Of a stretch of DNA of 64,000 bases, positions 14,697-53,481 are shown piece by piece. The notes beneath the pieces were generated by a model. It had not been told where the DNA came from, did no database searches, and was given only the letters and a program-made list of their open reading frames with translations. The position numbers and the translations under genes are program-made. The stretch comes from Anniella stebbinsi. Its lineage: Eukaryota; Chordata; Lepidosauria; Squamata; Anniellidae. The DNA is taken from contig JARDYH010000001.1 of the NCBI GenBank assembly GCA_029215795.1, positions 295,932,654 to 295,996,653 of the forward strand, written 5' to 3'. Within the stretch, counting starts at the first letter, position 1, and each line of letters begins with the position of its first letter.

Positions 14697-14856
14697 ATCC
14701 TTGCTACAAACCATTTAAGGCTTGCTGTCCTAAGCCTTACATGGCTTGGGACCATAATACCTGATGGAACACCTCTCCCAACCTGAACATACCTGGACAC
14801 TATAATCAACATCTCTTTCCCCCCCCCCCCCGAGTGCCACCTCCAAAGGAGGCTCA
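14697..14856 (+). mobile_element. L2-type LINE 3' fragment, left half, split by the Harbinger insertion
   Basis: GCCTTACATGGCTTGGGACC, CCTGATGGAACACCTCTCCC and onward match the 3' coding part of the LINE at about 52485-52615. The fragment is cut at TCA where the Harbinger element begins. Confidence 0.8.
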
Positions 14857-14872
14857 GGCCTCCTCCACACGG
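14857..14872 (+). repeat. Left terminal inverted repeat of the Harbinger element
   Basis: GGCCTCCTCCACACGG, preceded by the target duplication TCA. The same start is seen in the short derivative at 31480 (GGATGCCTCTACAAG). About 130 bases of the subterminal region (GGAGCGCAAAACGGGCGTAG and onward) are also shared with that derivative. Confidence 0.85.
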
Positions 14873-15184
14873 GGCGTTTAATGAGCCTTGAAGGCTCATT
14901 ATAAATTTTACCTACACACGAGCGGAGCGCAAAACGGGCGTAGGGGCGCGTTATCTCCCGGATTATGCGCATTATCGAATGCGCGTTAAATAGCGACTTT
15001 TATTTTGCGGCGGGATGTAAAGCGCGTTATGACCATGTGTACAGTTTTTCAGTGAAGCGCATTTTCGGAGAGGTGTGAGCAGGTAGAGGGCGGGTTTTGA
15101 CGAGATGGGCGGGGAGAGGGAAGGTATTTCCGGCGGGAGATTTGAAAAAAAAGCCCTCAGGTTATGCGCAGCCGCGCGGGTGTG

Positions 15185-15275
15185 CTCACCCAACGGTTTG
15201 GCTGGAGGCGCAGGTGTGGTCGCGCGCCTATGCATATAAGCGCGTGCGCGCGATCCGACCGTTGACCTCATTTAA
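15185..15275 (+). promoter_or_regulatory. Promoter-like block of the plus-strand Myb-like gene
   Basis: GCATATAAG at 15232-15240 is a good TATA box about 100 bases before the ATG at 15339. Two CAACGG Myb-type words flank it in opposite orientation (15191-15196 and, reversed, 15259-15264). The surrounding GCGCGCCTATGCATATAAGC resembles the block in front of the transposase. Confidence 0.5.
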
Positions 15276-15338
15276 CTTCGCGACGCCAGAGAGACTGCAT
15301 CCTGATTTATTTCCTCTACACCTTTTCCACCTACCGAA

Positions 15339-15828
15339 ATGGCTGCTCCAGGAAGGGGAGTTTCTTGGAAAAAGGCAGAGATTCTCGACCTTCTGGACAT
15401 TTTTGGGGAGCAGAAAGTTCAAGCTCAACTGAATGCCAGCCATAGGAACCTCGATGCCTATGAATCCATTGCTCAGGAAATGCAAAGAAGGGGCCATATC
15501 CGTACAGCGAAGGAGTGCAGGACGAAGGCAAAGGCAATGAGGCAGGAATATCGCAGGGTCGTGAATCATAATTCACGATCAGGAAATGATGCTGCCACCT
15601 GCCCCTTTTTTGAGGAGCTTCATAGCATTTTTCGGGGGGATGCTACTATTCAACCAAATCGCGTGGGCAGGAGTCTGAACATCCATCGTGTCCAAGCACC
15701 TGCTGCTGCTCCCCCAGTAAGTTCCCCCCTGGCTTTCCCGCTCTCAGAAGGCTCAGAAGAACTGTTCAGCAGTGAACTTCAAACAATAGATGTGGAGGAC
15801 TACCTTGGAACGCCCTACTCTCCCGGAG
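15339..15828 (+). CDS. Plus-strand Myb-like gene, exon 1 (DNA-binding domain)
   Basis: ATG at 15339 is the first in frame after the TATA-like box at 15234. Encodes 163 residues plus one base; the donor is GGAG followed by GTACAT. The trihelix-type domain is complete, with Trp10 and the CPFFEEL block. Confidence 0.85.
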
Positions 15829-18800
15829 GTACATTGATTGTAATTGCCATTTTTTAAAAAATCTCGTTCTTCCTTCTATTTCATGCCTATAGCTCACATC
15901 TGATGTTTTCCCCTTTTAGAATTGGAGACACCAGAAGATATTGGAAACGAAGAACCTGAAGGTATAGACTGTTTCTTTTGTTGGGTTGGGAAGACTCTTA
16001 ACTTTACAACTTAATATTGTGTTCCATGGAATAAAAAATTGTATTCTAAAATGGGGCAGGCAGATGCGGGTGAGCGGGTGGGGCAGGAGAGGGCAGGAGA
16101 GATCTCCTGTAGCTACCCAGCGTTTCTCTGGTCTCTCCAGGGCGGGGGGGAAAAAGGATAAGGGGCAGGCAGCCATTTTGAACAACCACCCCCATTTCAA
16201 AAGGAGGGAGGTTTGTGATTGTGCCTATTGATGAAACCTCCTAAAAGCTCTTCTTTTTCTGCCACGGCAGGAGCCTACAGAAGCAGCAGTACCACCAGTG
16301 CATCGGAATCCATTGAGCAAGCAGATTTGAGGGCCAGAAATCTCCAGCAGCATCCTGCAGCAGCAGCACCGAGTAAGTACAGGCCTAGCTAATTTCTGAG
16401 GTCAGACATCATGGAAGGAAGGGAGTTCCCAATGATCTAGGCTGGGTTTATGGGGGGGGGGGGGAGGGGGAAAGGGGGGCATTGGACACAACATTGTGGT
16501 GCATGGGACCAGAAATTGTGGTCTATGGGAGGGATTCCCGCCTTTTTCTCTACAGCAGTTAAAGTTACATGAGCCCTGACCTCCTTTTCATGTGGTCAGC
16601 CTAGGCAGGCAGCCATTTTGAACACACAAACAACCCCCCCCCTATTTAAAATGGAGGTTTGTGATTGTGCCTATTGGAAGACTCTTAACTTTACAACTTA
16701 ATATTGTGTTCCATGGAATAAAAAATTGTATTCTAAAATGGGGCAGGCAGATGCGGGTGAGCGGGTGGGGCAGGAGAGGGCAGGAGAGATCTCCTCTAGC
16801 TACCCAGCGTTTCTCTGGTCTCTCCAGGGCGGGGGGGAAAAAGGATAAGGGGCAGGCAGCCTCCTAATAGCTCTTCTTTTTCTTCCACGGCAGCCTACAG
16901 AAGCAGCAGTACCACCAGTGTGTCAGAAACCAGTGAGCACGCAGATTTGAGGGCCAGAAATCTCCAGCAGCATCCTGCAGCAGCACCGAGTAAGTATAGG
17001 GCTATGTCAATGAAACCTCCTAAAAGCTCATCTTTTTCTGCCATGGCAGGAGCCTCCAGAAGCAGCGGTACCACCAGTGCGTCAGAAACCAGTGAGCATG
17101 CAGATTTGAGGGCCAGAAATCTCCAGCAGCATCCTGCACCAGCACCACCGAGTAAGTATAGGGCTAATTTCTGGGGTGCATGGGACCAGAAATTGTGGTC
17201 TATGGGAGGGATTTCAGCCTTTTTCTCTACAGCACTTAAAGTTACATGAGCCCTGACCTCCTTTTCATGTGGTCACTGTAGTATACTGCCTGCAACTTTA
17301 ACTGTGGTGATGAAGAGGGAATTTCACCAGGTGCTGCATGCATACAAACGGCACCGGCTGAAATTCCTTTTTCTCTACAGCACTTAAAGTTACATGAGCC
17401 CTGACCTCCTTTTCATGTGGTCACTGTAGTATACTGCCTGCAACTTTAACTGTGGTGATGAAGAGGGAATTTCACCAGGTGCTGCATGCATACAAACGGC
17501 ACCGGCTGAAATTCCTTTTTCTCTACAGCACTTAAAGTTACATGAGCCCTGACCTCCTTTTCATGTGGTCACTGTAGTATACTGCCTGCAACTTTAACTG
17601 TGGTGATGAAGAGGGAATTTCACCAGGTGCTGCATGCATACAAACGGCACCGGCTGAAATTCCTTTTTCTCTACAGCACTTAAAGTTACATGAGCCCTGA
17701 CCTCCTTTTCATGTGGTCAGCCCTGACCTCCTTTTCATGTGGTCAGCCTAGGCAGGCAGCCATTTTGAACACACAAACAACCCCCCCCCCTATTTAAAAT
17801 GGAGGTTTGTGATTGTGCCTATTGGAATGAAACCTCCTAATAGCTCTTCTTTTTCTTCCACGGCAGCCTACAGAAGCAGCGGTTCCACCAGTGCGTCGGA
17901 AACCAGTGACCACGCAGATTTGAGGGCCAGAAATCTCCAGCAGCATCCTGCACCAGCACCACCGTGTAAGTACTGGGCTAATTTCTGGGGTGCATGGGAC
18001 CAGAAATTGTGGTCTATGGGAGGGATTTCAGCCTTTTTCTCTACAGCACTTAAAGTTACATGAGCCCTGACCTCCTTTTCATGTGGTCACTGTAGTATAC
18101 TGCCTGCAACTTTAACTGTGGTGATGAAGAGGGAATTTCACCAGGTGCTGCATGCATACAAACGGCACCGGCTGAAATTCCTTTTTCTCTACAGCACTTA
18201 AAGTTACATGAGCCCTGACCTCCTTTTCATGTGGTCACTGTAGTATACTGCCTGCAACTTTAACTGTGGTGATGAAGAGGGAATTTCACCAGGTGCTGCA
18301 TGCATACAAACGGCACCGGCTGAAATTCCTTTTTCTCTACAGCACTTAAAGTTACATGAGCCCTGACCTCCTTTTCATGTGGTCAGCCCTGACCTCCTTT
18401 TCATGTGGTCAGCCTAGGCAGGCAGCCATTTTGAACACACAAACAACCCCCCCCCCCTATTTAAAATGGAGGTTTGTGATTGTGCCTATTGGAAGACTCT
18501 TAACTTTACAACTTAATATTGTGTTCCATGGAATAAAAAATTGTATTCTAAAATGGGGCAGGCAGATGCGGGTGAGCGGGTGGGGCAGGAGAGGGCAGGA
18601 GAGATCTCCTCTAGCTACCCAGCGTTTCTCTGGTCTCTCCAGGGCGGGGGGGAAAAAGGATAAGGGGCTGGCAGCCATTTTGAACAACCACCCCCATTTC
18701 AAAAGGAGGGAGGTTTGTGATTGTGCCTATTGATGAAACCTCCTAATAGCTCTTCTTTTTCTTCCACGGCAGCCTACAGAAGCAGCGGTTACACCAGTGC

Positions 18801-19715
18801 GTCGGAAACCAGTGACCACGCAGATTTGAGGGCCAGAAATCTCCACCATCCTGCAGCAGGAGCGAGTAAGTACAGCCGATGTTATTTGCTTGATAAAGTT
18901 TCAGTCCTGCAATTCTTATAAATGTGTGAAAGGACATTCTCATCTTCAGGATGAGGGTGCGAGAGAACCCATGGTACAGGCTGGACATGTAATAAATGAT
19001 TTTTAAACACACTAAACTTTGCCCTTTCCCTTCAGGTACAGATGAAGGAAGGAGACATCCCATCCAAAAGTCAGCACTCTCGCCTGCAACGCGCCTGGAA
19101 ATGGCCAGAAACAGAAGACCCCCACGCAGCAGGGACACAGACCGCATTCTGGAGCATGCCTCTGCACACAACGCAAACCTCTTGCAGATGCATGAGCAGA
19201 TGTTGCAGAAAAATGACCAGATGTTGGACTATTTGAAAACAGAAGATGCAAGGGACCAAAGAAATCAAGATGCCCTTCTCAGAATTCTAGAAAGACAATG
19301 TGTCACGATGGAGAAGCTGGTGACGGTGGTGCAACAGGAAGAACCGGGAAGATCAACCGATACAGCCAACCCATCATCTACTAGCCATGGAAAACGCCAG
19401 CCAATAAAAAGACGGTTGGCTATTGACAGTATGGAGGGGACCAGCTCTAAGCCAAATGACTTAGGTGGGAACTCAGGAGAGGGTGAGGGGAGAAAATGCC
19501 TGGCTAAGAAGAAACGTAAAGTCAGGGTGCAACACCCCCAGTCTGCCCAGTTGCAAAATCCCCAGAATGACATTTTAACCAAAGACTTGGACGAATCACT
19601 GCTCCCGTGCTCCCATACAGTACCCCCACAGCGCTCATCATCACCACTTCAAGGTGAGCCAAGCATAAAGCGCACGGCACGGGAGGTAAAAAAACCCTTA
19701 AAGTTCTCCCCTTAG
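15339..19715 (+). CDS. Myb/SANT-like DNA-binding protein of the Harbinger element, with five tandem duplicated exons
   Basis: Eight exons join to 1704 bases (567 residues): 15339-15828, 15920-15961, 16271-16372, 16894-16989, 17050-17151, 17867-17965, 18773-18865, 19036-19715. Residues about 8-100 form a Myb/SANT-like (trihelix-type) domain, with WKKAEILDLLDIF, ECRTKAKAMRQEYRRV and PFFEELHSIF. Five repeat exons of 31-34 codons follow, each phase 1 to phase 1. The last exon gives a helical, coiled-coil-like stretch (ANLLQMHEQMLQKNDQMLDY) and a KKKRKV basic nuclear-localisation motif. In known Harbinger elements a Myb-like partner carries the transposase to the nucleus and helps it bind the ends; this is the likely role here, by inference. 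Confidence 0.82.
15920..15961 (+). CDS. Plus-strand Myb-like gene, exon 2
   Basis: 42 bases between CTTTTAG and GTATAG. Encodes the acidic stretch ELETPEDIGNEEPE in the frame set by exon 1. Short, but both splice sites and the frame agree. Confidence 0.7.
16271..16372 (+). CDS. Repeat exon copy 1 (exon 3)
   Basis: Acceptor CCACGGCAG, donor CCGA followed by GTAAGTAC; 102 bases. Encodes GAYRSSSTTSASESIEQADL, RARNLQQHP and an Ala-rich tail. It is the most divergent copy (SIEQ where the others have TSEH or TSDH). Confidence 0.75.
16894..16989 (+). CDS. Repeat exon copy 2 (exon 4)
   Basis: 96 bases, acceptor CCACGGCAG, donor CCGA followed by GTAAGTAT. Encodes TYRSSSTTSVSETSEHADL and RARNLQQHPAAAP. 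It keeps frame if included or skipped. Confidence 0.75.
17050..17151 (+). CDS. Repeat exon copy 3 (exon 5)
   Basis: 102 bases, only 60 bases after copy 2. Acceptor CCATGGCAG, donor CCGA followed by GTAAGTAT. Encodes SRSSGTTSASETSEHADL and RARNLQQHPAPAPP. The 60-base intron between copies 2 and 3 is short for a vertebrate and may instead be read through; in that case the frame also stays open. Confidence 0.7.
17220..17730 (+). repeat. Tandem repeat, about 147-bp unit, intron of plus-strand Myb-like gene
   Basis: Three units starting with CTGTAGTATACTGCCTGC at about 17276, 17424 and 17571. Each contains GATGAAGAGGGAATTTCACC and CTGAAATTCCTTTTTCTC. The unit is derived from the hAT-like foldback family seen at 34752, 49242 and 53482. 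Confidence 0.8.
17867..17965 (+). CDS. Repeat exon copy 4 (exon 6)
   Basis: 99 bases, acceptor CCACGGCAG, donor CCGT followed by GTAAGTAC. Encodes YRSSGSTSASETSDHADL and RARNLQQHPAPAPP. The flanking intron carries the 147-bp tandem units. Confidence 0.75.
18040..18420 (+). repeat. Second block of the 147-bp tandem repeat
   Basis: Two further units at about 18091 and 18239, with the same sequence as the 17220-17730 block, in the intron before repeat exon copy 5. Confidence 0.8.
18773..18865 (+). CDS. Repeat exon copy 5 (exon 7)
   Basis: 93 bases, acceptor CCACGGCAG, donor GCGA followed by GTAAGTAC. Encodes YRSSGYTSASETSDHADL, RARNLHHPAAGA. It is slightly shorter: the LQQHP of the other copies is LHHP here. 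Confidence 0.75.
19036..19715 (+). CDS. Plus-strand Myb-like gene, terminal exon
   Basis: Acceptor CCCTTCAG, then 226 codons to a TAG at 19713. Contains an Arg-rich start, a helical heptad-like region at about 19155-19320, and KKKRKV at about 19507-19525. It ends 543 bases from the stop of the convergent minus-strand gene. Confidence 0.8.
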
Positions 19716-19739
19716 AATACATGTTTTATGTTATTGTTA

Positions 19740-20045
19740 ATAATTTGCTGTTAATTATGGTTTTTTTTGCTGTTATTTATGTAATTGTTATGTTATTTGC
19801 TGTTAATTATGGTTTTTTTTGCTGTTATTTATGTAATTGTTATGTTATTTGCTGTTAATTATGGTTTTTTTTTGCTGTTATTTATGTAATTGTTATGTTA
19901 TTTGCTGTTAATTATGGTATTTTTTGCTGTTATTTATGTAATTGTTATGTTATTTGCTGTTAATTATGGTATTTTTTGCTGTTATTTATGTAATTGTTAT
20001 GTTATTTGCTGTTAATTATGGTATTTTTTGCTGTTATTTATGTTG
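19740..20045. repeat. AT-rich minisatellite between convergent genes
   Basis: About six units of 52 bases with TTGCTGTTAATTATGG, a T run and GCTGTTATTTATGTAATTG. It lies between the stops of the plus- and minus-strand Myb-like genes, where the 3' ends of both transcripts must lie. Confidence 0.85.
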
Positions 20046-20258
20046 TATTTAACCATTGAAATATAGTTTTCATATCTCACTGTGTGGTTGGGACTGTGCT
20101 TCCTATCTATTATTAAAACAGTTAGGCATCCCTCCTTAATACTGCACCAACCTGAAAATGCTAAGGAAAACCAAAACAATGTTTTAGTAACAAAAATAAA
20201 GATTTAGTTTTTTAAACAAATATTATTTTCAACTATTTACAATATTATTTTCAACTAT

Positions 20259-20368
20259 TTACAATTTATTGAGGATGCGGTCTAGCTTGTCCTCAATGGA
20301 GGACATGCGTTGCTGCATGCCTCCCACGGCGTTTTCTAGGCTCTCCAGCCGCTCCTCCTGAGTGGGAA
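20259..20368 (-). CDS. Minus-strand Myb-like gene, terminal exon
   Basis: 110 bases from CATGCAG to TAA at 20261-20259. Encodes the coiled coil with Leu/Ile/Met at heptad positions. Confidence 0.75.
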
Positions 20369-21876
20369 CTGCATGGGATGGTAAGAAAAAAAAAGTGTTT
20401 AAAATCATATAATATAACCAACAGAAAAACAGTTCAAGATGTACCACTCAATGACATTGGCTATTCAATGCGATTCAATTTACAGGAATGTAAATATAGT
20501 TTTTCATTTTTTAATTAAAAATTTAAACCATTAGTCCTGTACTGTACAATAGGGTGACCACATAAAATCCAGGTCGGTTAAACTGTTGTGATGAAGAGGG
20601 GATTTCACCAGGAACTAATTGCATACAAATGACACTGGCTGAAATTCCCTTTTCTCTACAACTGTTACAGATACAGGAGCCCTGACCTGGATTTTATATG
20701 CTCAATGTACTCTACATTATACAAAGCAATGGAACTTCTATTACCTGCTGGAGACACAGCAGCAGGTGAGACAGGTGGGGGTGCATTCTCCTCTTCCTCC
20801 TCTTCCTGCACCTCCTCCTCCACCTCCTCCGCAGACGGCGATGGCGATGGACTGAGTATCCCTTCAAAATTGGAAAAAAAATGTTATTTTAAGTTTCTAT
20901 CATGGTGTTCCCCGCCTCGATCCGTTGGGAGAGTCTGTTAATTAATAAATAAATACATATATCATTACAATTATTAATATTAATAATATTATTAAAGTAC
21001 GCTGGGCAAAAATAGTATTCCTAATTAATCTGGCTTGCATTTAACTTACGTGCCCTTCTGCGGAGGGTCATCCGAGGAGGAGAAGGAGGAGGAGGAGGAG
21101 AAGTCCCCCCAACCTCCTCCACTTCGGGAGACGGAGCCGCCTCTTCCGCCCTCCTGTTTTGGGCTAAGAAAAAGAGGGAAGGGAAAAAGGGAAATAACAT
21201 TAAAATGTGGAAGGGTCCCTGAAGGGCATCTAGTCCCACCCCAAGATGAATGCTGGAATCCACCTTAAAGCCTCATTGTGTCAGGGGTCATAGTTTTTGG
21301 GGCTTCCCCCCCCCAACCTGCACATCCACCAGAGAATACACAATGAGCAGTGGGCAGAATCACCAGCACACAGGGCTCCTGAAGGGCATCTAGTCCCACC
21401 CCACCCAAGATGTATGCTGGAATCCACCTTAAAGCCTCATTGTGTCAGGGGTCATAGTTTTTGGGGCTTCCCCCCCCCAACCTGCACATCCACCAGAGAA
21501 TATACAATGAGCAGTGGGCAGAATGCTAATGCACTCACTCACCTGCGGTCAGCCTCTCCTCAGGGCTTGGTCTCCCCGCCTTCCGCCACAGCTCCCTGAA
21601 TTCATTGAAGTAGGGGGGCCGCTGGCGAAAGGGGGGATGCTCTCCGTGGGCACTAATGGCCCGGAAAAAATGGGCCTTCATATACTTAAACTTCGTCCTG
21701 CACTGCAGGGCAGTGCGGACGAAGTTTTGCTGGCACAGAGCAGCAGCCGCCCTCCTAAACAGCCTCATAGTCGGGAGGCTGCTGCTCCTGACAATCCTTC
21801 CAACGAGGGAGGATTGGAGGAGGAAGGCCAATAATATGCGGACCTCCGCATCCCCCCAATACCTCCCTCTAGGCAT
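20259..21876 (-). CDS. Second Myb/SANT-like protein of the Harbinger element (224 residues)
   Basis: Four exons, 21876-21543, 21163-21050, 20861-20745 and 20368-20259, join to 675 bases with consensus GT/AG sites and no stop. Residues about 5-100 form a second trihelix-type Myb/SANT domain (YWGDAEVRILLAFL, ALQCRTKFKYMKAHF, PPYFNEFRELW), different from that of the plus-strand gene. A Pro-rich and very acidic middle follows (EEVEEEVQEEEEE). The C-terminus is a short coiled coil (ERLESLENAVGGMQQRMSSI, EDKLDRILNKL) that probably dimerises. Role inferred: DNA-binding partner of the transposase or regulator of the element. Confidence 0.8.
20550..20706. mobile_element. Half-copy of the hAT-like foldback family inside the Harbinger element
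   Basis: TAGGGTGACCACATAAAATCC at the left and GACCTGGATTTTATATG at the right, with the family's core (GATGAAGAGGGGATTTCACC). It sits in the last intron of the minus-strand Myb-like gene. Confidence 0.7.
20745..20861 (-). CDS. Minus-strand Myb-like gene, exon 3
   Basis: 117 bases from TTTTGAAG to GTAATAG. Encodes ILSPSPSPSAEEVEEEVQ, an acidic run and a Pro/Ala tail, in the frame set by exons 1 and 2. Confidence 0.72.
21050..21163 (-). CDS. Minus-strand Myb-like gene, exon 2
   Basis: 114 bases from TTTCTTAG to GTAAGT. Encodes AQNRRAEEAAPSPEVEEVGG, a Pro run and an Arg-rich end (MTLRRRA). Confidence 0.75.
21215..21540. repeat. Two-unit tandem repeat, about 168 bp
   Basis: CTGAAGGGCATCTAGTCCCA at about 21221 and 21379 starts two near-identical units ending in GAATATACAATGAGCAG. 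It lies in intron 1 of the minus-strand Myb-like gene. Confidence 0.8.
21543..21876 (-). CDS. Minus-strand Myb-like gene, exon 1
   Basis: 111 codons plus one base from the ATG at 21876; the donor is GCAG followed by GTGAGT. Holds the whole DNA-binding domain. Confidence 0.82.
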
Positions 21877-21894
21877 CTTGAAGGATTGTGAGGA

Positions 21895-22010
21895 AGTCTA
21901 GGCCTCACTTCCGGTTTGCGATGTTTCCGCGGACCGGTTTAGCGGTTGCGCGCATGCGCGCGGAACCGTCAAACCACCATTCCCGAACCGCGCGTAAGTG
22001 ATTAAACACT
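21895..22010 (-). promoter_or_regulatory. CpG-rich palindromic upstream region of the second Myb-like gene
   Basis: A CpG-dense stretch just upstream of the ATG at 21876. It contains GCGCGCATGCGCGC, a perfect palindrome, and four AACCG or CGGTT words, two on each side. No TATA box. The AACNG core is the type bound by Myb domains, so self-regulation is conceivable; inference only. Confidence 0.4.
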
Positions 22011-22049
22011 GTCGCGTTTGTTCGGAGCAGTGGGAAAGTTACCAGATGT

Positions 22050-22910
22050 GTTTTGGGTGTCCTGAATGTACCTTTGGGTGTCCTGAACTGAAAACCTGAG
22101 AATGTTATTGACTAGATGGTACTATGTTATTCTCAAAAAAACAACCCTGTGAGGTAGGCATGGGTTGTGGTCCTGTTACTTGCCCTTCTGCAATGTTCAC
22201 TGTACTGCATATGTGTGTTGGGTTACCTGAAGTCTTATTGTCTAGGAATACTACTATCAACATTGTCAAGTTGTAGGAACATATTTTATTTAGGATAAGC
22301 ATTTTTAAAATAAGCACTTTTTAATATGGCAACAACAATTTTGGGTGTCCTGAATGTACCTTTGGGTGTCCTGAACTGAAAACCTGAGAATGTTATTGAC
22401 TAGATGGTACTATGTTATTCTCAAAAAAACAACCCTGTGAGGTAGGCATGGGTTGTGGTCCTGTTACTTGCCCTTCTGCAATGTTCACTGTACTGCATAT
22501 GTGTGTTGGGTTACCTGAAGTCTTATTGTCTAGGAATACTACTATCAACATTGTCAAGTTGTAGGAACATATTTTATTTAGGATAAGCATTTTTAAAATA
22601 AGCACTTTTTAATATGGCAACAACAATTTTGGGTGTCCTGAATGTACCTTTGGGTGTCCTGAACTGAAAACCTGAGAATGTTATTGACTAGATGGTACTA
22701 TGTTATTCTCAAAAAAACAACCCTGTGAGGTAGACATGGATGGGCTGTGGTCCTGTTACTTGCCCTTCTGCAATGTTCACTGTACTGCATATGTGTGTTG
22801 GGTTACCTGAAGTCTTATTGTCTAGGAATTGTAGGAACATATTTTATTTAGGATAAGCATTTTTAAAATAAGCACTTTTTAATATGGCAACAACAATATG
22901 GCAATATGGC
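22050..22910. repeat. Three-unit tandem repeat, 288-bp period
   Basis: Units begin with TTTTGGGTGTCCTGAATGTA at about 22052, 22340 and 22628. The first two are nearly identical; the third has lost an internal segment near 22830. The spacer lies between the minus-strand Myb-like gene and the transposase. No gene is seen here; the 70-residue frame in each unit is a repeat product. Confidence 0.85.
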
Positions 22911-23700
22911 AACAACAATTTCAGCATAGAAAATAAAATTAACAGCATTTACAACAGCATTTAATTTGACATTGAAAGAAACATAGTTGAAAGTCACATT
23001 ATTATGAACATACATCTCATAACAATATCTAATTACTAACAGCAATGTAAAAGAAAAATCAGCAAAGAAAATAAAATTAACAGCATTTGCAACAGCATTG
23101 CATTACACATTGAAAGAAACATACGTTACTTTGAAGTCACTGAACATCTCAAAACAGCAATGTAAAAGCGAAATCAACATAGAAAATAAAATTCACATAT
23201 TCTAAAGGGATTGTCTATAAGTAGTCTCATTTCCTAATGCAGCTTCTTCTTGATGAAAAAAGAATAAACACAGTCAGTGCTGCCTGGAGCGGGACTTGGC
23301 TTTTGCTTGAAGAATGGAATGAATGATCCAGAAAAAGGAAGCGGTTGCCTTCTGGTCTGGTCACATCACAGAGGTTCCACACGACACCGTCTTTGATCCC
23401 CTGCAGTTCTCTCTATGCTATGTTCTAAGGGAAATTTAGAGATGGATTGTTTTAGCATAGGATGTAATAACAATATCCCACCCTCTACACATTCATTCAT
23501 TCATTCATTCTCAGGCCATGAAGCCTTTATGCGGATACTTTCCTGATTTGTTTATGCACTTTCCTTATTGGTTTATGCTTCGAGCAGGTCTTGACACATG
23601 ATTCCTTCCTGTGACTTGCTGAAATAGAGTAAATAGAGTAAAGTTAGGGAAAACATGGCTTACACAAGTTTGGCACAGGGGTTTGGCACTGAACACTCAC
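22910..23700. other. Spacer downstream of the transposase
   Basis: AT-rich DNA with two to three decayed copies of a roughly 130-bp unit (AAAATAAAATTAACAGCATTT at about 22930 and 23068) and an ATTC microsatellite at 23490-23511. It is likely the 3' untranslated part of the transposase transcript; no gene seen. Confidence 0.5.
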
Positions 23701-23704
23701 CTCC

Positions 23705-24424
23705 CTAGGGGTTCTGCCCACGCAGAGACCAAAGCATGCCTCTTAAGGCATCTCTGACCTTTTCCCCAGCAGCCTTTTCTTGAATTTCCTCATGCCCCGT
23801 TGGCAGCGGGGCACCCAGGGTTGCCAGTTCAATTTGCCTTGCTTCGTGGAGATCCAATGCAACATCATGTCCTTGACTTTCACAAATGTTGTGTAGAATG
23901 ACACAGGCAGATATCACAGAAATGACGTTTTCTTCAGCGAGTTCTATCCTGGACGACAGGCATCTCCACCGTGCTTTTAACCTTCCAAAGGCACATTCAA
24001 CAACATTCCTCGCCCGTGACAGACAGTGGTTGAAATGTTGCTTTTGCTGGTCCAGGGCTCCGCCGTAAGGTTTCATCAGCCACTTCCGAATGGGGTAAGC
24101 GGAATCAGCCACCACCAGTGGAGGAATCTGCACGTCATTAACAGTAATGGTAGGGTTCCCTGGGATGAAGACACCAGCTTCCATGGCCTCAAAGAACGCA
24201 GAGTTCCTGAAGACATGGGCATCGTGATTTCTCCCACTCCAACCTATTTCCACATCCATGAATCGCCCACGGTGGTCCACTGTGCCTTGAAGGAGCATGG
24301 AAAAAAAGCGTTTCCGGTTTATGTAGTCAGGGCCTTGCCTAGGAGGACAGGCAATTTCAATGTGACATCCATCTGTGGCTGCAACACAATGAAAGAAGCC
24401 CAGTTTGGAAAATCCACTCATGAT
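23705..24424 (-). CDS. Transposase exon 2 with DDE triad
   Basis: Acceptor TCTCTCAG at 24425; the first codon is Ile, followed by MSGFSKLGFFHCVAATDG. Contains all three catalytic acids and the C-terminal helices. Stop TAG at 23707-23705. Confidence 0.92.
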   Translation of the reverse strand: MMSGFSKLGFFHCVAATDGCHIEIACPPRQGPDYINRKRFFSMLLQGTVDHRGRFMDVEIGWSGRNHDAHVFRNSAFFEAMEAGVFIPGNPTITVNDVQIPPLVVADSAYPIRKWLMKPYGGALDQQKQHFNHCLSRARNVVECAFGRLKARWRCLSSRIELAEENVISVISACVILHNICESQGHDVALDLHEARQIELATLGAPLPTGHEEIQEKAAGEKVRDALRGMLWSLRGQNP

Positions 24425-25186
24425 CTGAGAGAGAAAACATAAATAATGGAAAATAAATCATTACTGCTTCATCGGCTGGCATGCTTGAGATACAATGATC
24501 AAGTTCCATTTGGCCACCTATATAACAGCCTAGCCCATCTTTTCCTATCCCAAATAATAAAAAACAAGACTCACCTCTGGAACATTGCCAAGGCAAACTG
24601 TTTTTCTCAGAAGCGCATGCTCCATGGCTAGGCAGACCTCCACAACGATCATGGCTGCCGTTGTTCTACCGATCCCAAATTGCTGAGCCACCACCCGGTA
24701 ACCACCAGGATTTGCTAGCCTCCATATACAGATGGCCACGCGCTTCACCATTGGAATGGCTTCCCTCATGTTCGTATTGCGACGTTCTAGAAATGGCCGA
24801 AGATGGTCTGCAATCTGGAAAAGGGTTGCTCTGGTCATCCTAAAGTTCTCTAGCCACTGCTCATCACCCCAGAGGGCTAGAACATCGTTTTCCCACCAGT
24901 CACGACTCCTGGGGAAGCACCACCATCTTCTTGGTCTCTGTTGTTTCATCAAAGGAACATATAATAAATTCTCTTGGAGCCTATCTTGTTGGAGCCTTAA
25001 AAGATATGAGTTGTTCTCTTGGAGCATTCTCCTGATGATTCTTCTTCTTCTTCTTCTCCGTTGAATCGTTCTCCTTAGGCAAGTCAATGTAAAATGCATA
25101 TTTGCGATCATAAGTTGAATTGCATACACGAGGGAACGAGAAATCGAGGTAGGAGCCATCTCGCCTTCTCTTCCCGTCCAGCTCAA
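23705..25186 (-). CDS. HARBI1-like DDE transposase (443 residues, two exons)
   Basis: Exon 1 is 25186-24575 (204 codons) and exon 2 is 24424-23705 (239 codons plus stop). The intron is 150 bases with GTGAGT and CTCTCAG ends. The N-terminal half is basic (RRRRRRRIIRRM) and then a helix-turn-helix-like region (FRMTRATLFQIADHLRPFLE, VAQQFGIGRTTAAMIVVEV) as in the PIF/Harbinger DDE_Tnp_4 family. The catalytic triad is visible: Asp222 in AATDGCHIEI, Asp311 in VVADSAYPI and Glu347 in RNVVECAFGRLKARWR, with 35 residues between the last two. No stop or frameshift interrupts it. It should cut and paste the element in the nucleus. HARBI1 is the domesticated relative of this family, but the flanking repeats and duplication show this copy is a transposon gene. 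Confidence 0.92.
24575..25186 (-). CDS. Transposase exon 1
   Basis: From ATG at 25186, with a second Met nine codons later, to the donor CCAGAG followed by GTGAGT. It ends in phase 0. Confidence 0.88.
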
Positions 25187-25270
25187 AATGGCGTTTCAGA
25201 AAGAGAAAAGGGGAACCAAACTTGCTTCTCTGGTGTCGCCTAGGTAAATGAACTCAAGGGTCGACGAAAC

Positions 25271-25660
25271 TCAGATCACGTGCTTGTATGCATATGCGCG
25301 CGCGCGAAGGTGCGCGTAACCTGAAGGCATTTTTTTCCCCCCGCTCAGCTCTGCCCTCTCCCCCCCTCCCATCTGGTTGCCAGGTAACCCGAAATTACGT
25401 AGGCAGGCAGGTACATTCCTGTGGGTGGAGCACAGGAAGGGAGGGCTGGGAAAGGGGTTGGCTCTGATCACGTGCTTGTATGCATATGCACGCGCGCGAA
25501 GGTGCGCGTAACCTGAAGGCATTTTTTTCCCCCCGCTCAGCTCTGCCCTCTCCCCCCCTCCCATCTGGTTGCCAGGTAACCCGAAATTACGTAGGCAGGC
25601 AGGTACATTCCTGTGGGTGGAGTACAGGAAGGGAGGGCTGGGAAAGGGGTTGGCTTTAGG
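25271..25660 (-). promoter_or_regulatory. Tandemly duplicated promoter-like block upstream of the transposase
   Basis: Two copies of about 192 bases (from about 25274 and 25466) with only a few differences. Each holds CACGTG, TGTATGCATATG and alternating CG runs. Read toward the transposase it gives GCATATGCATACAAGCACG, related to the TATA block at the left end. The ATG of the transposase is about 90 bases downstream of the nearer copy. Confidence 0.55.
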
Positions 25661-25845
25661 CAAAAAGCGAATTAAAATGTCTGTTTCCTCCTCCCGAAGC
25701 CCCGCATGTGAACAATTAAAACGCGCGTCGGAGAAAAGCGATAATGCGCTTCAACGCCTCTCGCTGCCTCCCGTGCAGAGGGATGAGGCGTAAATGCGCC
25801 TCCGCGATAGTGCGCATAATACCACAAACGGGCGCAAAAGCGCAT

Positions 25846-25861
25846 CCTTGTGGAGGGGGCC
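25846..25861 (-). repeat. Right terminal inverted repeat of the Harbinger element
   Basis: Read inward on the minus strand: GGCCCCCTCCACAAGG, followed outside by TCA. The subterminal stretch 25740-25845 (GTGCAGAGGGATGAGGCG, GCGCATAAT) closely matches the right end of the 31480-31834 derivative. Confidence 0.85.
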
Positions 25862-26190
25862 TCAGAAAGTGGAAGCAAGGGACAGGGCCTTCTCAGTGGA
25901 ATGAGCTCCCCACCAAGGCCTGCCTGGTGCTGACATTGTCATCTTTTCATCACCAGGTAAAGACCACCCTCTATTCCCAGGAATTTAATGGTATATTATG
26001 AGGCATCTATATCTACTATTTTAGAATGGGTCTATTGGAAAAACATAGTTTATTTGTTTTTATTGTTTACATTGTTTTAAATTTTCTATGTTAACATTTT
26101 TAGAGTATTTTTATTATATTGTATTTCATATTTTTATCAACCATTGTAAACTGCCCAGAGAGCTTCGGCTATAGGGCAGTATATAAATGA

Positions 26191-30776: not shown

Positions 30777-33700
30777 CTGAACAGAAAGAAGTCAAAATTA
30801 TGGCATATGTGTTTTGTATACGTTTGTCTCTTCAACTGGCATATGTGATGCAACACTGTTCATCCAAAAAGATGAACCCTCAAACCTGGAACTCAAATCC
30901 GGTCCTCCCAATCTGGCCCTCTGGAGTTCCTCAGAAGGCCATGCTCCCTTTTCCCCAGTCTCTAATCATTTCATGGTTTCTTGGCTTTTGTACAGATCTA
31001 AAAGGTTGAAATGCCTCTCCTAAAGTTTAGTTCCTAGTAGGGTTTATTCCCATGCACAGATGCCTAGGATCGCAGTCTCAGCACCTCTCGTTGGGACCAT
31101 ATAGCCTTTTCTCATGCTACATGAGCTTTAACTCCAAATTAATTATTTAGTGTTGAAGGTAGGCATGGTTGGGCACCTGCCAAAGGCCAACACCCCAGCA
31201 GGGACAGGGCGACCCTATGAAAAGGAGGAGAGGGCTCCTGTATCTTTAACGGTTGTATAGAAGAGGGAATTTCAGCAGGTGTCATTGGTAGGCATGCAGC
31301 ACCTGTGAAATTCCCTCTTCATTACTACAGTTAAAGTTGCAGGAGACTTGCCCTCTTTTGTAACTGGTTACTCTAGTATAGCTCCTGCAGCTTTAACTGT
31401 TGTGATGAAGAGGGAATCTCACCAGGTGCTGCTTGCATACAAATGGCACCTTCTCAAATTCCCTTTTCAATACAACTGTGGATGCCTCTACAAGAGGCAT
31501 TTAAAGCTCTTTCAAGGCGCATTAAAAAAATTACCTCTACAAGAACGGAGCGCAAATCGGGCGTAGAGGCGCGTTATCTCCCCGATTATGCGCATTATCG
31601 AATGCGCGTTAAATCCCGAGTTTTATTTTGCTCCGTCCGTTAAAGCGCATTTTGACTGTGCGAATAAGCGCTTATGCGCATTAACTACTTGTAAAGCGCA
31701 TTTTGGACATCTGTTAATGTGCTTCGCCGCCTCTTGCCGCCTCTCGTGCAGAGGGATTAGGCGTAAATGCACTTCTGCGATTATGCGCATAATCGCCTAA
31801 CCAGGTGCAAAAGCGAATCCTTGTAGAGGGGACCTGTTAAAGAAACAGGAGCCTGCCCTCCTTTCCATATGGTCACCCTAGCTGTTGGCCACATGCTGTT
31901 TGCTTTTGGCCCCACCCACCACTGGAATGCAGCCTATGAGAGCTTCTGTGAAATGGAATTTGGCCCTTGGTTGGAAAGAAGTTCTGCACCTCTTCTATAT
32001 AGAGCCATCTATTCAGTTGTGAGATAAATCTTGTATTCAGGGGTGATATAAATTGGAATCCTTTGTCCATGGAGTTGAATGAACACAGAACAGCACAGGG
32101 GGACACTAACAGAAGGCATCCTTAACTGCGGTACAGATAGTAGGAAAGTTTGCAGGTAAGTTGTTAATGGTTAAAACTGCACTTGTCTTTCAAGCATTTG
32201 GTAGCATATAATGCATCTTTTTGATCAGGTCCTGCATTGTCTCTGGCTGATGTTTTTAAACTGTTTTATATATATGTTGTTGTGTGTGCTGTCTGTTTTA
32301 TGTCCTTACGTGAATAGTTTTATAGTTTCTCTAATGTGTTTTTCCTCTCTATAATATGTTTTAATGGTTTTTAATTTTTGTGAACTGCCCAGAGAGCTTT
32401 GGCTATGGGGCATTATAGAAATGTAATAGATGAATGGATGGATGGATTCTACTTTGGCATATTTATGCAGTAAGATTCAATGTAATTTTTCTGATTCTAA
32501 TTGGTCGGAAAGCAAGATCTATTTTTAAATCCTGATTGCCCATCATAGCAACCCACAGTTTCTGGCTGGGAACCCTGGTTTTCCCTGTGTACAAAAAAAT
32601 ATAGTGGCACAATCAAAGCTCAACATGGGCCTGGGCCAAAGGTTACTCCAGTTCATGAGGATACCGAAGACTGCCATCTGCTTAGGACAAACAACAGAGA
32701 AAGGTTCATGGTAAAAGGGGGTGGTGCCTGGTAAAACAGCTATCATGCAGGAGTGGATCCTGGATGAAGGTGCTGAGTGGGCTTCTATTTTCAAGACCCA
32801 ATTGGACAAGATAGATAGTCTAATCCAGGTTCTTGGTTCAGCATCAGCATGACACCATAGCTTGTATCAGGTCTCTGTGTTCTAGGGCAATGAAGCAGCA
32901 GAGAAAAAAGGCTAGAATACAAATGGAGAAAAATTCAAGACCAGTTCTGCTGGATATGGGCTAAAGCCCATTTTAAGGCCTACTCTATGGGATGGTAATG
33001 ATGATAAAGCAAACTTTATTCACCATGTACAATGCCTTGTCAGTGTACATTAAGGGGGGGGGAGCTGCTTTCTTATCAGGCTTTTTTTTCCTTGGATCTT
33101 TCCACATTCACTACGGGATCTTTTAGACAACGTCCAATGGCGACCACATGATTTGTGATTGAAACTTACCCTCTGGGCAATGCTCCATAAAGTTAAATGA
33201 AACTGTGCCATCTAGTGGCAGAATTAATCCTGCAATTATTTTAAATACTGCATTATCTCCATTTTTTTTTAAAGTGAGATCACCGAAGGAAGGTATGGGA
33301 GATGTCCTTGACAGCTTCATGTAAAGGACCCACAAACTTCCATGAGTGTGCAATAAATCACTCATGTAGAGAAGCTCCATGGCTTTGCATCTCCACAGTG
33401 CCATCCAGCAAACTTTTTCCAAGTCATAAATGACTTGCTTCACAGTACCCCCTAAAGGATAATCTAAGACAGCCTTCCCCAATCTGGTGCCTACCACATG
33501 TGTTCCAACATTCTCCAGCTAAGCACCCATGCTTATTGTGGATGATGGTCATTGTAGTCCAACACATCCAGAGGGTACCAAGTTGGAGAAGGCTGATCTA
33601 AGAGAACTTTCAATATTTAACATTGTAAATCATAAGTATTTTAAAATGAGGTCAACTTAGTTCCTGTAATTTTGTCAGTATTTTCTTGATTTCTCAGTAC

Positions 33701-36700
33701 ACAAGAACCATAAATTTGATATGCTCACTCCATCAAGAAATTACCATTGATTTTGACAAAATAAGGACAGTGTTTTACACATTATTTGTTCTATAACTTA
33801 ATGGTAGAAGTATTTGACCTATAATGTTGTATAGCGTAACACATTTTATATATTTGTGGTGGGAGATTCAAGTCAGATAAAAGGAAGTATTTCTTCACAC
33901 AGTGCATGGTTAAACTATGACATTCCCTACCATAAGATGTAGTGACGGCCACCAATTTGGATGGCTTTAAAGGGCAGCTGGATAAATTCCTAGAGGAGAA
34001 GGCTGTCAATGGCTACTATTCCTGATGGTTATATACTACCTCCAGTAGCAGAGGCAGTAAGCCTATGTACACCAGTTGCTGGGGAACATGGGCCAGAGGA
34101 TGCTATTGCACCTATGACTTGCTTATGGGTTCCTGGTTGACAGCTGGTTAGCCACTTTGTGAACAGAGTGCTGGACTAGATGAACCCTTGGTCTGATCCA
34201 GCATGGCTCTTCTTATGCTCCTATATATCTGAGTACAGAAGCCAAATGTATGCTTGCTAATTCAGAAAAGACTTGCACGCCAAGAATTTGATAATGTTCT
34301 GGGCCCCTTATGTCAGTGTTGTTTTTCTTGAAAACTCTTGAGGTTATTCTGGTTTAGTTATTAAAGGTGACTGAACTCTTGGTCAGTAAAGTATTGCTGA
34401 TTGCGTATAGGGCTTCGATGATAAGAAAAATTGTGCTCTTTTGTGAACCTTTAACCTATCAAGCACCTAAGCCATACTTTCCCCTATACGTGTAAGATGT
34501 CGTTGACAATGTTCTAGAACAGAATTCCCTCAGTTGAGACCAAAAAGGCTTAAACGGCATAGTATTTTAGATGTGGATAGGGCTGTCAGGCATGTGGAAA
34601 CATGTTTTGCTTTTGTTTTAGATTAGCAAAATGTCTTGAAATGGGAAGGTGCTGTCATGTAAGTTACTGAAAGTGCAATCCTATGCATGTTGAGACTGAA
34701 AAAACATCCTACAACTCCCAGGATTCCCCAGCCAGCCATGTAGACTTTTTTTAGGCTGACCAGATAAAATCCAGGTCAGGGCTCATGTAACTTTAGAGAA
34801 GGGAATTTCAGCCAGTGGCATTTGTATGCAATTAGTTCCTGCTGAAATTCCCTCTTCATCACAACAGTTAAAGTTGCAGGGGCCCTGCCTTCTTTTGTAT
34901 ATGGTCACTGTAGTATAGTGCCTGCACCTTTAACTGTTGTGATGAAGAGGGAATATCACCAGGAACTAATTCCATACAAATGGCTGAAATTCTCTTTTCT
35001 CGACAACTGTTAAAGTTACATGAGCCCTGACCTGGATTTTATCTGGTCACCCTACTTTTTTCCTGTCTAAACATGCACAGAATTGTGCCCTTAACTGTCT
35101 TTTGTAATTAGTTAATTGATTAAAATCAATATTACAGGTTTACAATGTAGAACTTAATTGACTAAATTTACTGGCAACAATTTTTTTGTCTCAACTCGCA
35201 TTGCAAACCCCATGTGTGTTTACACAGAAGTAAGTCCCATTGCATTCAATGGGGCTTACTCTCAAGTGCATAGGACTGAAGTCTAAATGACACAATGCAA
35301 TGACACATATGCAGCAATAGTGATACGTTGGGAAATGAAGTTAACTGTACTTTTAAGCCAGAGGCAGTTTACAGCTGCACCATCACCATTTACAGACAGC
35401 AGCTTGAATTAGATCTGTTTTAAAACCTACTGCTGACATCTGCAGTTACTGTTGAGAAAGGACTTTGGTGCATATAAGAGAGTTACAAATGGAAGTGGGC
35501 ATTCCTGTATAAGGTATCCCCAATCTAGTGTTCTCCAAATGTATTGGACTACAACTCCCATCAGCTCTACCCAACAATCCAAAATGGTGGGAGTTGTAGT
35601 CTGAAATGTCTGCAGGGCACCAGATTGGGGAAGGCTGATATAAGGTAGGTGTATTAGAGAATCAGGAATCAAAGTGGTGGTAGTTTGTAACTAAAGGTGC
35701 CTCTTAAAATTTCTACAGTCTTCTGTTTGAGATAGCATTTTCAAAAGTTCTAGTCTGATTTACCAGATTGAAAAATGCAATTAAGGTGAAATGTGTAGAC
35801 TACAATGCTGATCACACATTCTCACATATTCAAGCATCCTATTTATACATCAGTGTAAAGAGTGAAAAAGAATACTTTGTCCTCCATAGAGCTTCTCTGG
35901 GTTTTTAAAGCTGAAAAGGAGATGAGAATTCTGTGGAGTTTAGTGGTTAGCTTCATTGAAGTGATTAAGGATGCAATCCTATGCCACTTACCTGTAAGAC
36001 CCACTGAACTAAGTGAGACTTTCTTTTGAGTAGACATATATAGGATTGTAATGTTAGGTTTTTGATGATTCAGTCCATACTCCATTGAAGTCAATGTCAA
36101 ATCTGCCATTGATTTCCAGGACGGTGTACTCTGTTCTTAGTCCAGACCTTCACAACCTGGCACCCCTCCCCCAGATATGTTCGACCACAATCTCCAGCAT
36201 CCCCAGCCATAGGTTGTACTGACTAGGGATGATGGGAGTTTCTGTCCAACACATCTGGGGGGGACAAGATGTGGGTTGGAAAAGGCTGCTCTAGTCTATG
36301 TACTAAAAGGGTGTCCCCACTGTTAATACAAACCCTGACTGAATGAAAGCAGACTGTGCAGAAAAGCTTGGAAAAATCTCCTTTTAGCAGAGTGTCTATA
36401 GAATCTACAGTGTAGGCACTATCGACTGAACTCTAAAGTCACCACAGGTGCGTTTAGTTAAGACAGAAATGGAAGGGCATAATTTACTTTGGATTTTACC
36501 CCCCACCACTCTAGCTCTGTTTTAACAAACAGCAGCCCCACATTTAGATCCATACATAAAGGCATCTTCCTGGATGTATTTCCTGTTCAAAGGAGAAATC
36601 TTCTGCAGAATACCTGACCGGAAGGGTAAGAAGCTAATGTGCTAATATTAGTTACAGCCACCACTAAGCAAAGTGAGGCAGTTGCTTCAGGTGGCAAATG

Positions 36701-49241: not shown

Positions 49242-49398
49242 TAGGGTGACCATAGGGAAAGGAGGACAGGGCTCCTGTATCTTTAAGAATTGCATAGAAA
49301 AGGGAATTTCAGCTGGTGTCATTTGTATGCATGCAGCACCTGGTGAAATTCTCTCTTCATCACAACAGTTAAAGCTGCAGGAGCCCTGCCCTCTTGAC
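49242..49398. mobile_element. Half-copy of the TAGGGTGACCA foldback family
   Basis: Starts TAGGGTGACCATAGGGAAAG, contains the GGGAATTTCAGCTGG and CATCACAACAGTTAAAGC words, and ends near CTGCCCTCTTGACCA. Confidence 0.7.
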
Positions 49399-49995: not shown

Positions 49996-52970
49996 TTTAA
50001 TTGTGGATGAGGCAGCTGATCTGGCATGTATAACCGAGCCCTGGGTGGGTGAGCAGGGAGGAGTTAGCCTCTCCCAGTTATGCCCACCAGGATACTTGGC
50101 TCAGCATCAGGGTAGACTGAAGGCCGGGGAGGGGGGTTGCTGTGGTCTATAGGAACTCCATCTCCCTCTGCAGGCTCCCTGTCCATGTGACTACTGGTCT
50201 GGAGTGTTTGCACCTTGTGTTAGGTCAGCGGGACAGATTAGGGATTCTGTTGGTGTACCGCCCACCCCGCTGCTCAACGGACTCCCTAGGTGAGCTGACG
50301 GAGGTGGTCTCGGGTGTACTGCTGAGATCCCCTAGACTGTTGGTTCTGGGGGATGTCAACATTCATGCTGAGGGCACCTTATTCGGGGCAGCTCAGGATT
50401 TCATGGTCTCCATGACAACCATGGGACTGTCCCAACATGCCATCGGCCCAACGCATGTAGCAGGGCATACTCTAGACCTGGTTTTCGCAACTGGACATGG
50501 AGATGGTGATCTGAAAGTAGAGGACTTTACATCAGTCCCTTTGTCATGGTCAGATCACTGCTTGCTGAGGTTTAGACTTACAGCGGCTTTTCCCCTCTGC
50601 AAGGGTGGGGGACCTATTAAGATGGTCCGCCCCCGGAGGCTAATGGATCCGGATGGTTTCCAGAGGGCTCTGGGGAGTTTTCCAGATGATAGGGCTGGCT
50701 CTCATGTCGAAACCCTGGTTGATCTGTGGAATGCAAAAATGACCCGGGCAGTTGACACGATTGCTCCTGAGCACCCTCTCCTGTGTAGAGCTCATACAGC
50801 TCCATGGTATACCCCAGAGCTGAGAGCAATGAAACAAAATAGGAGACGGCTTGAGGGCAGATGGAGACGAACTCCTGATGGATGCAATCAAACACTGGTA
50901 AGTGCCTATAGTAAGGTATATTCAGGGGCAGTGAGGGCGGCAAAAAAGCAGTACTTTGCTGTCACCATCAAATCATCTATCTGCCGCCCAGCGGAGCTTT
51001 TCAGAGTTGTCCGGGGGCTATTACATGCTGGCCCCAAGGATGTGCTACAACCATCTGAGGCCCGCTGTACTGAATTTGCTAGACACTTCCAGAATAAAAT
51101 CTTTGGCATCCGCCAGGACTTAGACTCCAGTGTTATAGCAGGTAAATCTAGTGAGGTGTCCAGAGCACAGGCTTGTCCTGTTTTCTTGGATGAGTTTCAG
51201 TTGATACAGCTTGAGGATGTTGACAAGGTGCTTGGACAGGTTCGTGCAACCACCTCTGTATTGGATCCTTGCCCCTCTTGGCTAATAAAAGCTAGCAGGG
51301 ATGGAACAGCCGGCTGGGCCAGGGAAGTGATTAATGCCTCTCTACGAGAGGGAGTGGTCCCAGGCCGCTTGAAGGAGGCGGTACTGAGACCACTCTTGAA
51401 GAAATCTTCCCTAGACCCCGAAAATCTTAATAACTATAGACCTGTGGCAAATATTCCATTCCTGGGCAAGGTCCTTGAGCGAGTGGTTGTGAGCCAGCTC
51501 CAGACACTCTTGGATGAGACTGATTATCTGGATCCATTTCAGTCCGGCTTCAGGCCTGGTTTTGGCACGGAAACAGCCTTGGTCACCCTGTATGATGACC
51601 TATGTCGGGAGAAAGACAGGGGGAGTGTGACTCTGTTGATTCTCCTTGATCTTTCAGTGGCTTTCGATACCATCGACCATGGTATCCTTCTGGGACAACT
51701 GGCTGAGTTGGGAGTGGGAGGCACTGCACTGTAGTGGTTCCGCTCCTACTTGGCGGGGCGGCTCCAGAAGGTGGTGCTTGGGGGACATTGCTCAGCCTCG
51801 TGGATTCTCCAGTATGGGGTTCCGCAGGGGTCAGTCTTGTCCCCCATGCTGTTCAACATTTACATGAAACCGTTGGGAGAGGTCATCCAGAGTTTTGGTG
51901 TATGTTGTCATCAGCACGGTGATGACACACAACTTTATTTCTCCTTTTCATCTTCATCAGGTGAGGCTGTGGATGTGCTGAACCAGTGCCTGGCTGCGAC
52001 AATGGACTGGATGAGGGCTAACAAACTGAAACTCAATCCAGACAAGACTGAGATGCTGTTAGTGGGTGGTTCTGCTGACTGGATGGAGGGTGTTCAACCT
52101 GTTCTGGATGGGGTTGCACTCCCCTTGAAGGAGCGGGTTCGTAGCTTGGGGGTTCTCCTAGAACAATCTCTGTCACTTGAGGCTCAGGTGGCCTCGGTGG
52201 CATGGAGTGCCTTCTACCAACTTCGGTTGGTGGCCCAGCTACGTCCCTATCTGGACAGGGATAACCTGGCTTCAGTTGTCTATGCTCTGGTAATCTCTAA
52301 ATTGGATTACTGCAATGCACTCTGTGGGGCTGCCTTTGAAGACGGTTCAGAAGCTGCAGCTTGTGCAAAATGCAGCGGCCAGAGTGATAACAGGAACCAG
52401 AAGGTTTGAGCATATAAGACCTACTCTGGCCCGCTTGCACTGGCTGCCTATACATTTCCGAGCTCAATTCAAGGTGCTGGTTTTAACCTGTAAAGCCTTA
52501 CACGGCTTGGGACCACAATACCTGATGGAACGCCTCTCCCGACATGAACCTACCCGTACACTACGATCCATATCGAAGGTCCTCCTCCGGTTGCCTACTC
52601 CAAGGGAGGCACGGAGGGTGAAAACAAGGGAAAGGGCCTTTTCAGTGGTGGCCCCCCAATTATGGAATGATCTCCCTGATGAGGCTCGCCTGGCGCCAAC
52701 ATTGTTATCTTTTCGGCACCAGGTCAAGACTTTCCTCTTCTCCCAGGCATTTAACAGCATATGATGAAGGTGTTTTTGTGTTTTTGTGTTGTTGTTGTGC
52801 TTTGACCCAGAAGGATATTGTAATTTTAACTTGTTTTTGTGCTTTATGTTTTTAAATTTTGTATATTGGTGCTTCAATGTTCAATGTTTTTAATTTTTGT
52901 AAACCGCCCAGAGAGCTTCGGCTATGGGGCGGTATATAAATGGAATAAAATAAATAAATAAATAAATAAA
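49996..52970 (+). pseudogene. L2-type LINE with endonuclease and reverse transcriptase, decayed
   Basis: Reads through an apurinic-type endonuclease part (ACITEPWV, GGVAVVYR, ILLVYRPP, LVLGDVNIHAEG, SDHCLL) and a reverse transcriptase (LRPLLKKSSLDPENLNNYRP, FQSGFRPGFGTETAL, LLILLDLSVAFDTIDH, YGVPQGSVLSPMLFNIY, NKLKLNPDKTEMLL). Then comes the C-terminal part (LDYCNALCGAAF, ALHGLGPQYL) and a tail GCCCAGAGAGCTTCGGCTAT with (AATA)n. The main frame 50142-51734 has a TAG at 51732-51734; the frame resumes after it, and a shift near 52340-52400 breaks it again. The catalytic YADD is HGDD (about 51915-51926). The 5' end and the first part of the endonuclease are missing. Not functional. Confidence 0.9.
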
Positions 52971-53480
52971 AGTAGGCGCCAGGCGAACTTCTCTGGGGAG
53001 CTCATTCCACAGCCGGGGTGCCACAGCGGAGAAAGCCCTCCTCCTAGTGGCCACCTGCCTCACTTCCTTTGGCAGGGGCTCACGGAGAAGGACCTCTGTA
53101 GATGATCTTAGGGTCCGAGCAGGTACATATGGGAGGAGGCGTTCCTTTAGATAACCCGGCCCCAAGCCATTTAGGGCTTTAAGTGTTAGTACCAACACTT
53201 TGAATTGGGCCCGGACTTGGACCGGCAGCCAGTGAAGCTGGACAAGACTGGCGTAATGTGATCTCGTTGGTCAGTCCCTGTTAGCAAACATGCTGCCCTG
53301 TTTTGTACCAGCTGAAGTTTCCGGACTGTTTTCAAAGGCAGCCCTACGTATAATGCATTGCAGTAATCCAAACGAGAGGTTATGAGAGCATGGATAACTG
53401 TAGCTAGGCTATCTCTGTCCAGATAAGGGGCAGTATCGAGAAGGGAGAAGGCCAGGGAAGCTGTTTAGCGTGAGTATATA
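52971..53480 (-). pseudogene. L2-type LINE fragment, opposite strand, abutting the LINE tail
   Basis: On the minus strand: MDYCNALYVGLPLKTVRKLQ, LVLTLKALNGLGPGYL, RRRAFSAVAPRLWNELPREV. It lacks the true 3' tail and ends at the shared (TTTA)n run of the neighbouring copy. Confidence 0.85.
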
Positions 53481-53481
53481 T

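Follow-up and report, generated by a model that had tools for sequence, protein, structure and literature searches.

An 11-kb NuwaII-like PHIS transposon from Anniella stebbinsi with a transposase gene and two predicted Myb/SANT genes

The window analysed here, a 64,000-nt stretch of Anniella stebbinsi DNA, contains a transposon unit of 11,005 bp flanked on both sides by exact copies of TCA. A first-pass annotation had described this unit as an 11-kb element with matched ends, an exact TCA duplication and three spliced frames free of stops and shifts, one encoding a transposase with a full DDE triad and two encoding distinct Myb/SANT proteins. Each of these observations was borne out, and the exact ends, a related empty site and a non-autonomous relative (MITE) establish the unit as one transposon. 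The features are collected in Table 1. The three genes were predicted with splice sites placed by eye; all have GT/AG introns of consistent phase and translate without internal stop. The proteins encoded by A and B share only 24% identity over 96 aa, with conserved domain positions in common. No second copy of A, B or C was detected in the window outside the element (best E 1.3).

Table 1. Features of the transposon unit and its non-autonomous relative, in window positions.
Feature	Position	Strand	Remarks
TSD TCA, left	14854..14856	.	exact copy of the right TSD
Left TIR, GGCCTCCTCCACACGG	14857..14872	+	14/16 positions match the right TIR
Left subterminal region	14857..15338	+	CpG-rich, CpG o/e 1.34; inverted similarity to the right end
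Gene A, Myb/SANT protein (PF13837), 8 exons, 567 aa	15339..19715	+	predicted spliced frame
Gene A exons	15339-15828, 15920-15961, 16271-16372, 16894-16989, 17050-17151, 17867-17965, 18773-18865, 19036-19715	+	splice sites by eye
Repeated exon of gene A, five copies of 93-102 nt	16271..18865	+	all entered in phase 1
Gene B, second Myb/SANT protein, 4 exons, 224 aa	20259..21876	-	predicted spliced frame
Gene B exons	21876-21543, 21163-21050, 20861-20745, 20368-20259	-	splice sites by eye
CpG-rich stretch upstream of gene B	21877..22050	-	CpG o/e 1.45
Tandem array of 288-bp units	22051..22897	.	lies between genes B and C
Gene C, DDE transposase, 2 exons (25159-24575, 24424-23705), 434 aa	23705..25159	-	triad D213 D302 E338
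Right subterminal region	25160..25861	-	192-bp tandem duplication inside; CpG o/e 0.85
Right TIR, GGCCCCCTCCACAAGG	25846..25861	-	14/16 versus the left TIR
TSD TCA, right	25862..25864	.	exact copy of the left TSD
MITE, 355 bp, with both ends of the big element	31480..31834	+	TSD TGT

The TIRs are short (16 bp), and 19 of the first 30 bases are alike. The inverse likeness of the end regions extends inside the TIRs, with a local alignment score of 57, whereas 200 dinucleotide shuffles gave no score above 31. A strict end pattern matches the two element ends and one other place, position 19434, within the last exon of gene A. The hexamer ATGCGC is found four times at each end (within 274 and 202 bp), and the 9.8-kb interior contains three copies; of the 16 copies in the remaining window, 10 fall in the MITE. 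As an end motif it is a lead only. CpG o/e in the stretches upstream of A, B and C (Table 1) compares with 0.00-0.30 in three spacer or intron stretches. The left subterminal region is presumed to be the promoter of gene A and a protein-binding region, the right subterminal region the presumed promoter of gene C, and the CpG-rich stretch upstream of gene B its presumed promoter.

The host site of the element is an interspersed repeat. Its flanks, joined with one TCA, align with the repeat copy at 52493-52953 in an alignment of 485 columns that shows 69% identity and includes 47 gap positions; the junction itself is gap-free, and the copy has there a single 3-base slot with the letters ACG instead of TCA. 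This copy represents a related, non-orthologous empty site, and it supports an insertion event that added precisely the unit and 3 bp. It follows a LINE-like reverse transcriptase at 50121-52409, which is split across two neighbouring open stretches (RVT_1, 9.2e-12 and 5.8e-15).

Further along the window, the MITE resembles the big element at both ends: identity is 81% between its left 172 bp and the left end and 82% between its right 120 bp and the right end, with order and orientation preserved. Its joined flanks match several copies of its own host repeat across the junction. Because this short element carries both ends co-linearly, the two ends lying 11 kb apart belong to one transposon family, for which the MITE is the strongest evidence. 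The same observation weighs against the idea that two nested or adjacent Harbinger elements lie here, either with A in one and B and C in the other or with B nested. The presence of two Myb genes in one unit and the common orientation of B and C could be read that way, but there is a single TIR pair, a single TSD and a related empty site, and the MITE combines one end from the side of A with the other from the side of C. An internal pair of ends was also sought around gene B, with arms in 19716-20258 and 21877-23704 and without a shuffle control. None of the 58 bracketing 9-bp perfect inverted pairs had matching 3-bp outer flanks, and the perfect 10-bp pairs found there, 26 in number and mostly stemming from the tandem repeat, lacked such flanks as well. 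Two nested or adjacent elements are already disfavoured as regards A versus C, and we regard the whole proposal as very improbable.

The size of the element had been singled out as unusual in the first-pass annotation. Autonomous elements average 4,124 bp in PIF/Harbinger, 4,462 bp in NuwaI and 4,685 bp in NuwaII according to the consulted part of PMC4482050. The 11 kb found here overstate the content of the element. At least 3,073 of the 11,005 bases are internally duplicated, the additional copies of the small repeated exon of gene A among them, counting bases in any 20-mer that a same-strand copy precedes within the element, and coding sequence amounts to 3,684 bp, or 33.5%. Duplications, introns and spacers account for much of the 11 kb. 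Among the tandem arrays, several are 97-100% alike, and a 192-bp duplication lies upstream of gene C. The window contains no N; an unmarked misassembly in the tandem arrays could nevertheless be present. An interspersed repeat is found in the introns of both A and B and also elsewhere in the window, and its presence in both genes suggests a long residence in the host lineage. Recent activity, which had been proposed from the intactness of the element, found no support in our analysis. This interspersed repeat is imperfectly palindromic, with copies at 17218-17719, 18032-18385, 20550-20709, 31211-31474, 34752-35054, 49246-49393 and 53471-53632; besides introns of the two Myb/SANT genes, these places include the surroundings of the MITE.

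The earlier label of PIF/Harbinger holds for the superfamily, whereas PIF/Harbinger proper appears to fit less well. A DDE_Tnp_4 transposase with a complete triad, TIRs and a 3-bp TSD place the element in the PHIS (PIF/Harbinger-ISL2EU-Spy) superfamily, and the Myb/SANT accessory gene known from most of its groups is present as two genes instead of one. In the sections of PMC4482050 at hand, the targets are given as TWA for PIF/Harbinger, CWG for NuwaI and C(TNA)G for NuwaII, the duplicated bases being bracketed. The big element lies in C(TCA)G, on account of which we prefer the NuwaII group to PIF/Harbinger proper, whereas the MITE lies in C(TGT)T and misfits, so that any target preference rests on two insertions only. 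As in NuwaII, where TIRs measure 13-46 bp and mostly begin with GG, the TIR is of 16 bp beginning with GG, and a DDE transposase, a Myb/SANT gene and a 3-bp TSD are found together (PMC4482050, in part). The element differs from NuwaII in having three open genes in 11,005 bp, instead of mostly two ORFs in about 4,685 bp; two ORFs are usual, without being a rule, for autonomous PIF/Harbinger, NuwaI and NuwaII elements in the same excerpts. With PIF/Harbinger proper it shares a DDE_Tnp_4 transposase, a Myb-like partner, short TIRs and a 3-bp TSD, but TWA and about 4,124 bp contrast there with TCA (TGT in the MITE), two Myb genes and 11 kb here (PMC4482050, PMC9179366 and PMC8437027, as far as their consulted parts go). 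A NuwaII-like PHIS element is therefore the assignment that appears to fit better.

In the titles and abstracts of the literature covered, a range outside which Repbase and most subscription papers fall, no Harbinger element with a third gene or with two Myb genes was found. The phrase "two SANT" in PMC11161486 was considered as a precedent for two Myb genes and rejected, since in the available portion of that paper it means SANT1 peaks.

Gene C encodes a DDE transposase, matching DDE_Tnp_4 (PF13359) at 2.6e-35 in Pfam. Our search found 422 homologues, of which the 120 listed were taken for comparison. The full DDE triad is kept in 91 of these 120. Among the 120, conservation is 90% or higher in 72 columns, and C agrees at 69 of these. 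The organism names shown for the listed homologues are those of reptiles, lizards first. Among them are two transposase-like proteins from Elgaria multicarinata, P0001, which shares 54% identity with C across 91% of the length of C, and P0002, which represents 38 member sequences and shares 52% identity across 97%; both keep the DDE residues. A comparison of C with solved structures gave nothing useful. Several reptile relatives of C (P0003, P0010, P0019, P0025 and others) carry a KRAB box, P0010 having a SCAN domain as well, and 29 of the 120 listed relatives are without the full triad in the alignment. Such KRAB boxes and missing triads hint at repeated host co-option.

The product of gene A matches Myb_DNA-bind_4 at 6e-19, above the Pfam cut-off for PF13837, and plant GT-1 among solved structures (0.0046). 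At least six reptile proteins are related to it, a lower bound given that the search scored the 7,990 candidates with the most shared words. These proteins, P0121-P0125 and P0126 from Rhineura, are annotated as ZSCAN29-like, MSANTD7 or MSANTD7-like, or uncharacterised, and going by the species names we take their hosts to be five geckos and one amphisbaenian, the source of P0126, which contains a KRAB box. Identity to A is 53-55% for P0121-P0125 and 46% for P0126, over 26-32% of A, in the Myb region. The string SPATRL from the last exon of A is common to all six, and the C-terminal part of A is weakly similar to them (best E 0.005), whereas nothing in these proteins corresponds to the repeated exon of A (best E 1.5). 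All of them seem to be products of host genes. Because these reptile proteins resemble A, it is gene A that looks like the usual type of Myb partner, and gene B would be the extra one.

All copies of the repeated exon of A have lengths that are multiples of three, and with their common phase 1 entry any copy number keeps the frame. The copies are 89-95% alike, while identity rises to 99-100% in parts of the introns that separate them. Exons 5 and 6 differ at 6 of 102 bases, as compared with 2 of 420 in the downstream intron (Fisher p 0.001), and pN/pS is 1.28 when summed over ten pairs of copies, which share exons and are non-independent. Positive selection on the repeated exon is nonetheless not supported, because the intron directly upstream (5 versus 6), with 4 of 41 bases changed, has diverged to the same degree. 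The pattern is better explained by duplication and homogenisation acting as a mosaic.

The product of gene B, with a middle rich in acidic residues and proline and a C-terminal stretch that looks coiled-coil-like by eye, passes the PF13837 cut-off: its match to Myb_DNA-bind_4 has a value of 8.1e-10 when the open stretch containing exon 1 is used and of 3.2e-9 when the spliced protein is used. An open frame as long as its spliced 675 nt was reached in 2 of 5000 composition shuffles, a figure that flatters gene B inasmuch as its splice sites were picked to keep the frame open. Judged by the codon usage of A and C, its frame is the best of six (0.273 versus at most 0.139); exon 1 alone leads narrowly (0.184 versus 0.153). 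The domain score, the open frame, the codon usage and the upstream CpG all argue for a real gene. Against this stand the lack of any relative found, an upstream stretch unlike the element ends (in the four comparisons, scores at least as high arose in 33, 25, 63 and 46 of 200 shuffles), an exon 3 acceptor ending in AAG and a GC3 of 0.649, which differs from 0.484 in A and 0.487 in C. The search for relatives at E<=1e-3 was made among 7,410 candidates and is a weak negative, as the proline- and acid-rich query probably crowded the candidates. Exon 1 had no match in viral_contigs or genome_contigs, and among solved structures B as a protein hit only a designed protein (0.0056). The predicted model of B is helical, with a mean pLDDT of 76.2. 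Foldseek returned no match to it at E<=0.001; the top four rows, three Sap1 and one GT-1 DNA-binding domain, are weak (E 0.38-0.74).

Gene B might be non-functional, a decaying domain left open by chance, or the arrays surrounding it might be an assembly artefact. The near-identity of several tandem arrays, together with the weak negative of the relative search, would suit this view, but a PF13837 match at this level, a four-exon open frame scoring best of six and a window devoid of N make it, in our judgement, distinctly unlikely.

The main rival is another one: gene B could be a passenger, a Myb/SANT gene of the host or of another transposon that was picked up by this one copy or by a few related copies and has no role in transposition. 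Its low identity to A, its deviating GC3 and an upstream sequence without likeness to either end of the element would all be expected of such a gene, and the published PHIS groups that possess a Myb/SANT gene have one each, judging from what was consulted of PMC4482050. The failure of the inverted pairs to bracket B speaks against a passenger, yet a capture without ends would leave none. In addition, introns of A and B alike contain the interspersed repeat, so that nothing obvious marks B as having arrived very late. We hold a passenger to be rather unlikely, though deserving of serious weight.

We favour, with somewhat better than even confidence, a single structurally intact NuwaII-like PHIS transposon moving by cut-and-paste, in which B is a resident third gene with an accessory or regulatory role. 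In the zebrafish and rice work cited in PMC9710019 (seen in part), the Myb-like partner binds to subterminal DNA and interacts with the transposase, whose nuclear placement depends on it, and neither protein is dispensable; a plant SANT1 protein binds TIR sequence (PMC11161486, likewise in part). From these relatives, we infer that transposase C would cut at the 16-bp ends and insert at a 3-bp target, and that the Myb/SANT partner A would bind the subterminal regions and carry C to the nucleus and to the ends. Gene B would be a second, diverged Myb/SANT DNA-binding protein gene, resident in the family under its own CpG-rich promoter. Its product would most likely serve as a second accessory subunit or a regulator and may derive from an old duplication or from an exchange of the Myb partner. 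More tentatively, and with considerably less confidence, we envisage a Harbinger-type lineage that relies on two different Myb/SANT proteins for transposition or its control, where A would act at the ends while B would be either a second subunit that is obligate or a built-in repressor.

Such a lineage, if real, would be a three-component version of a system so far described with two. A natural element with two different Myb proteins would allow end-finding, transposase delivery and regulation to be assigned to individual proteins, and with its frames open it would be directly testable in a cell assay. The element is also a possible source of reptile Myb/SANT host genes.
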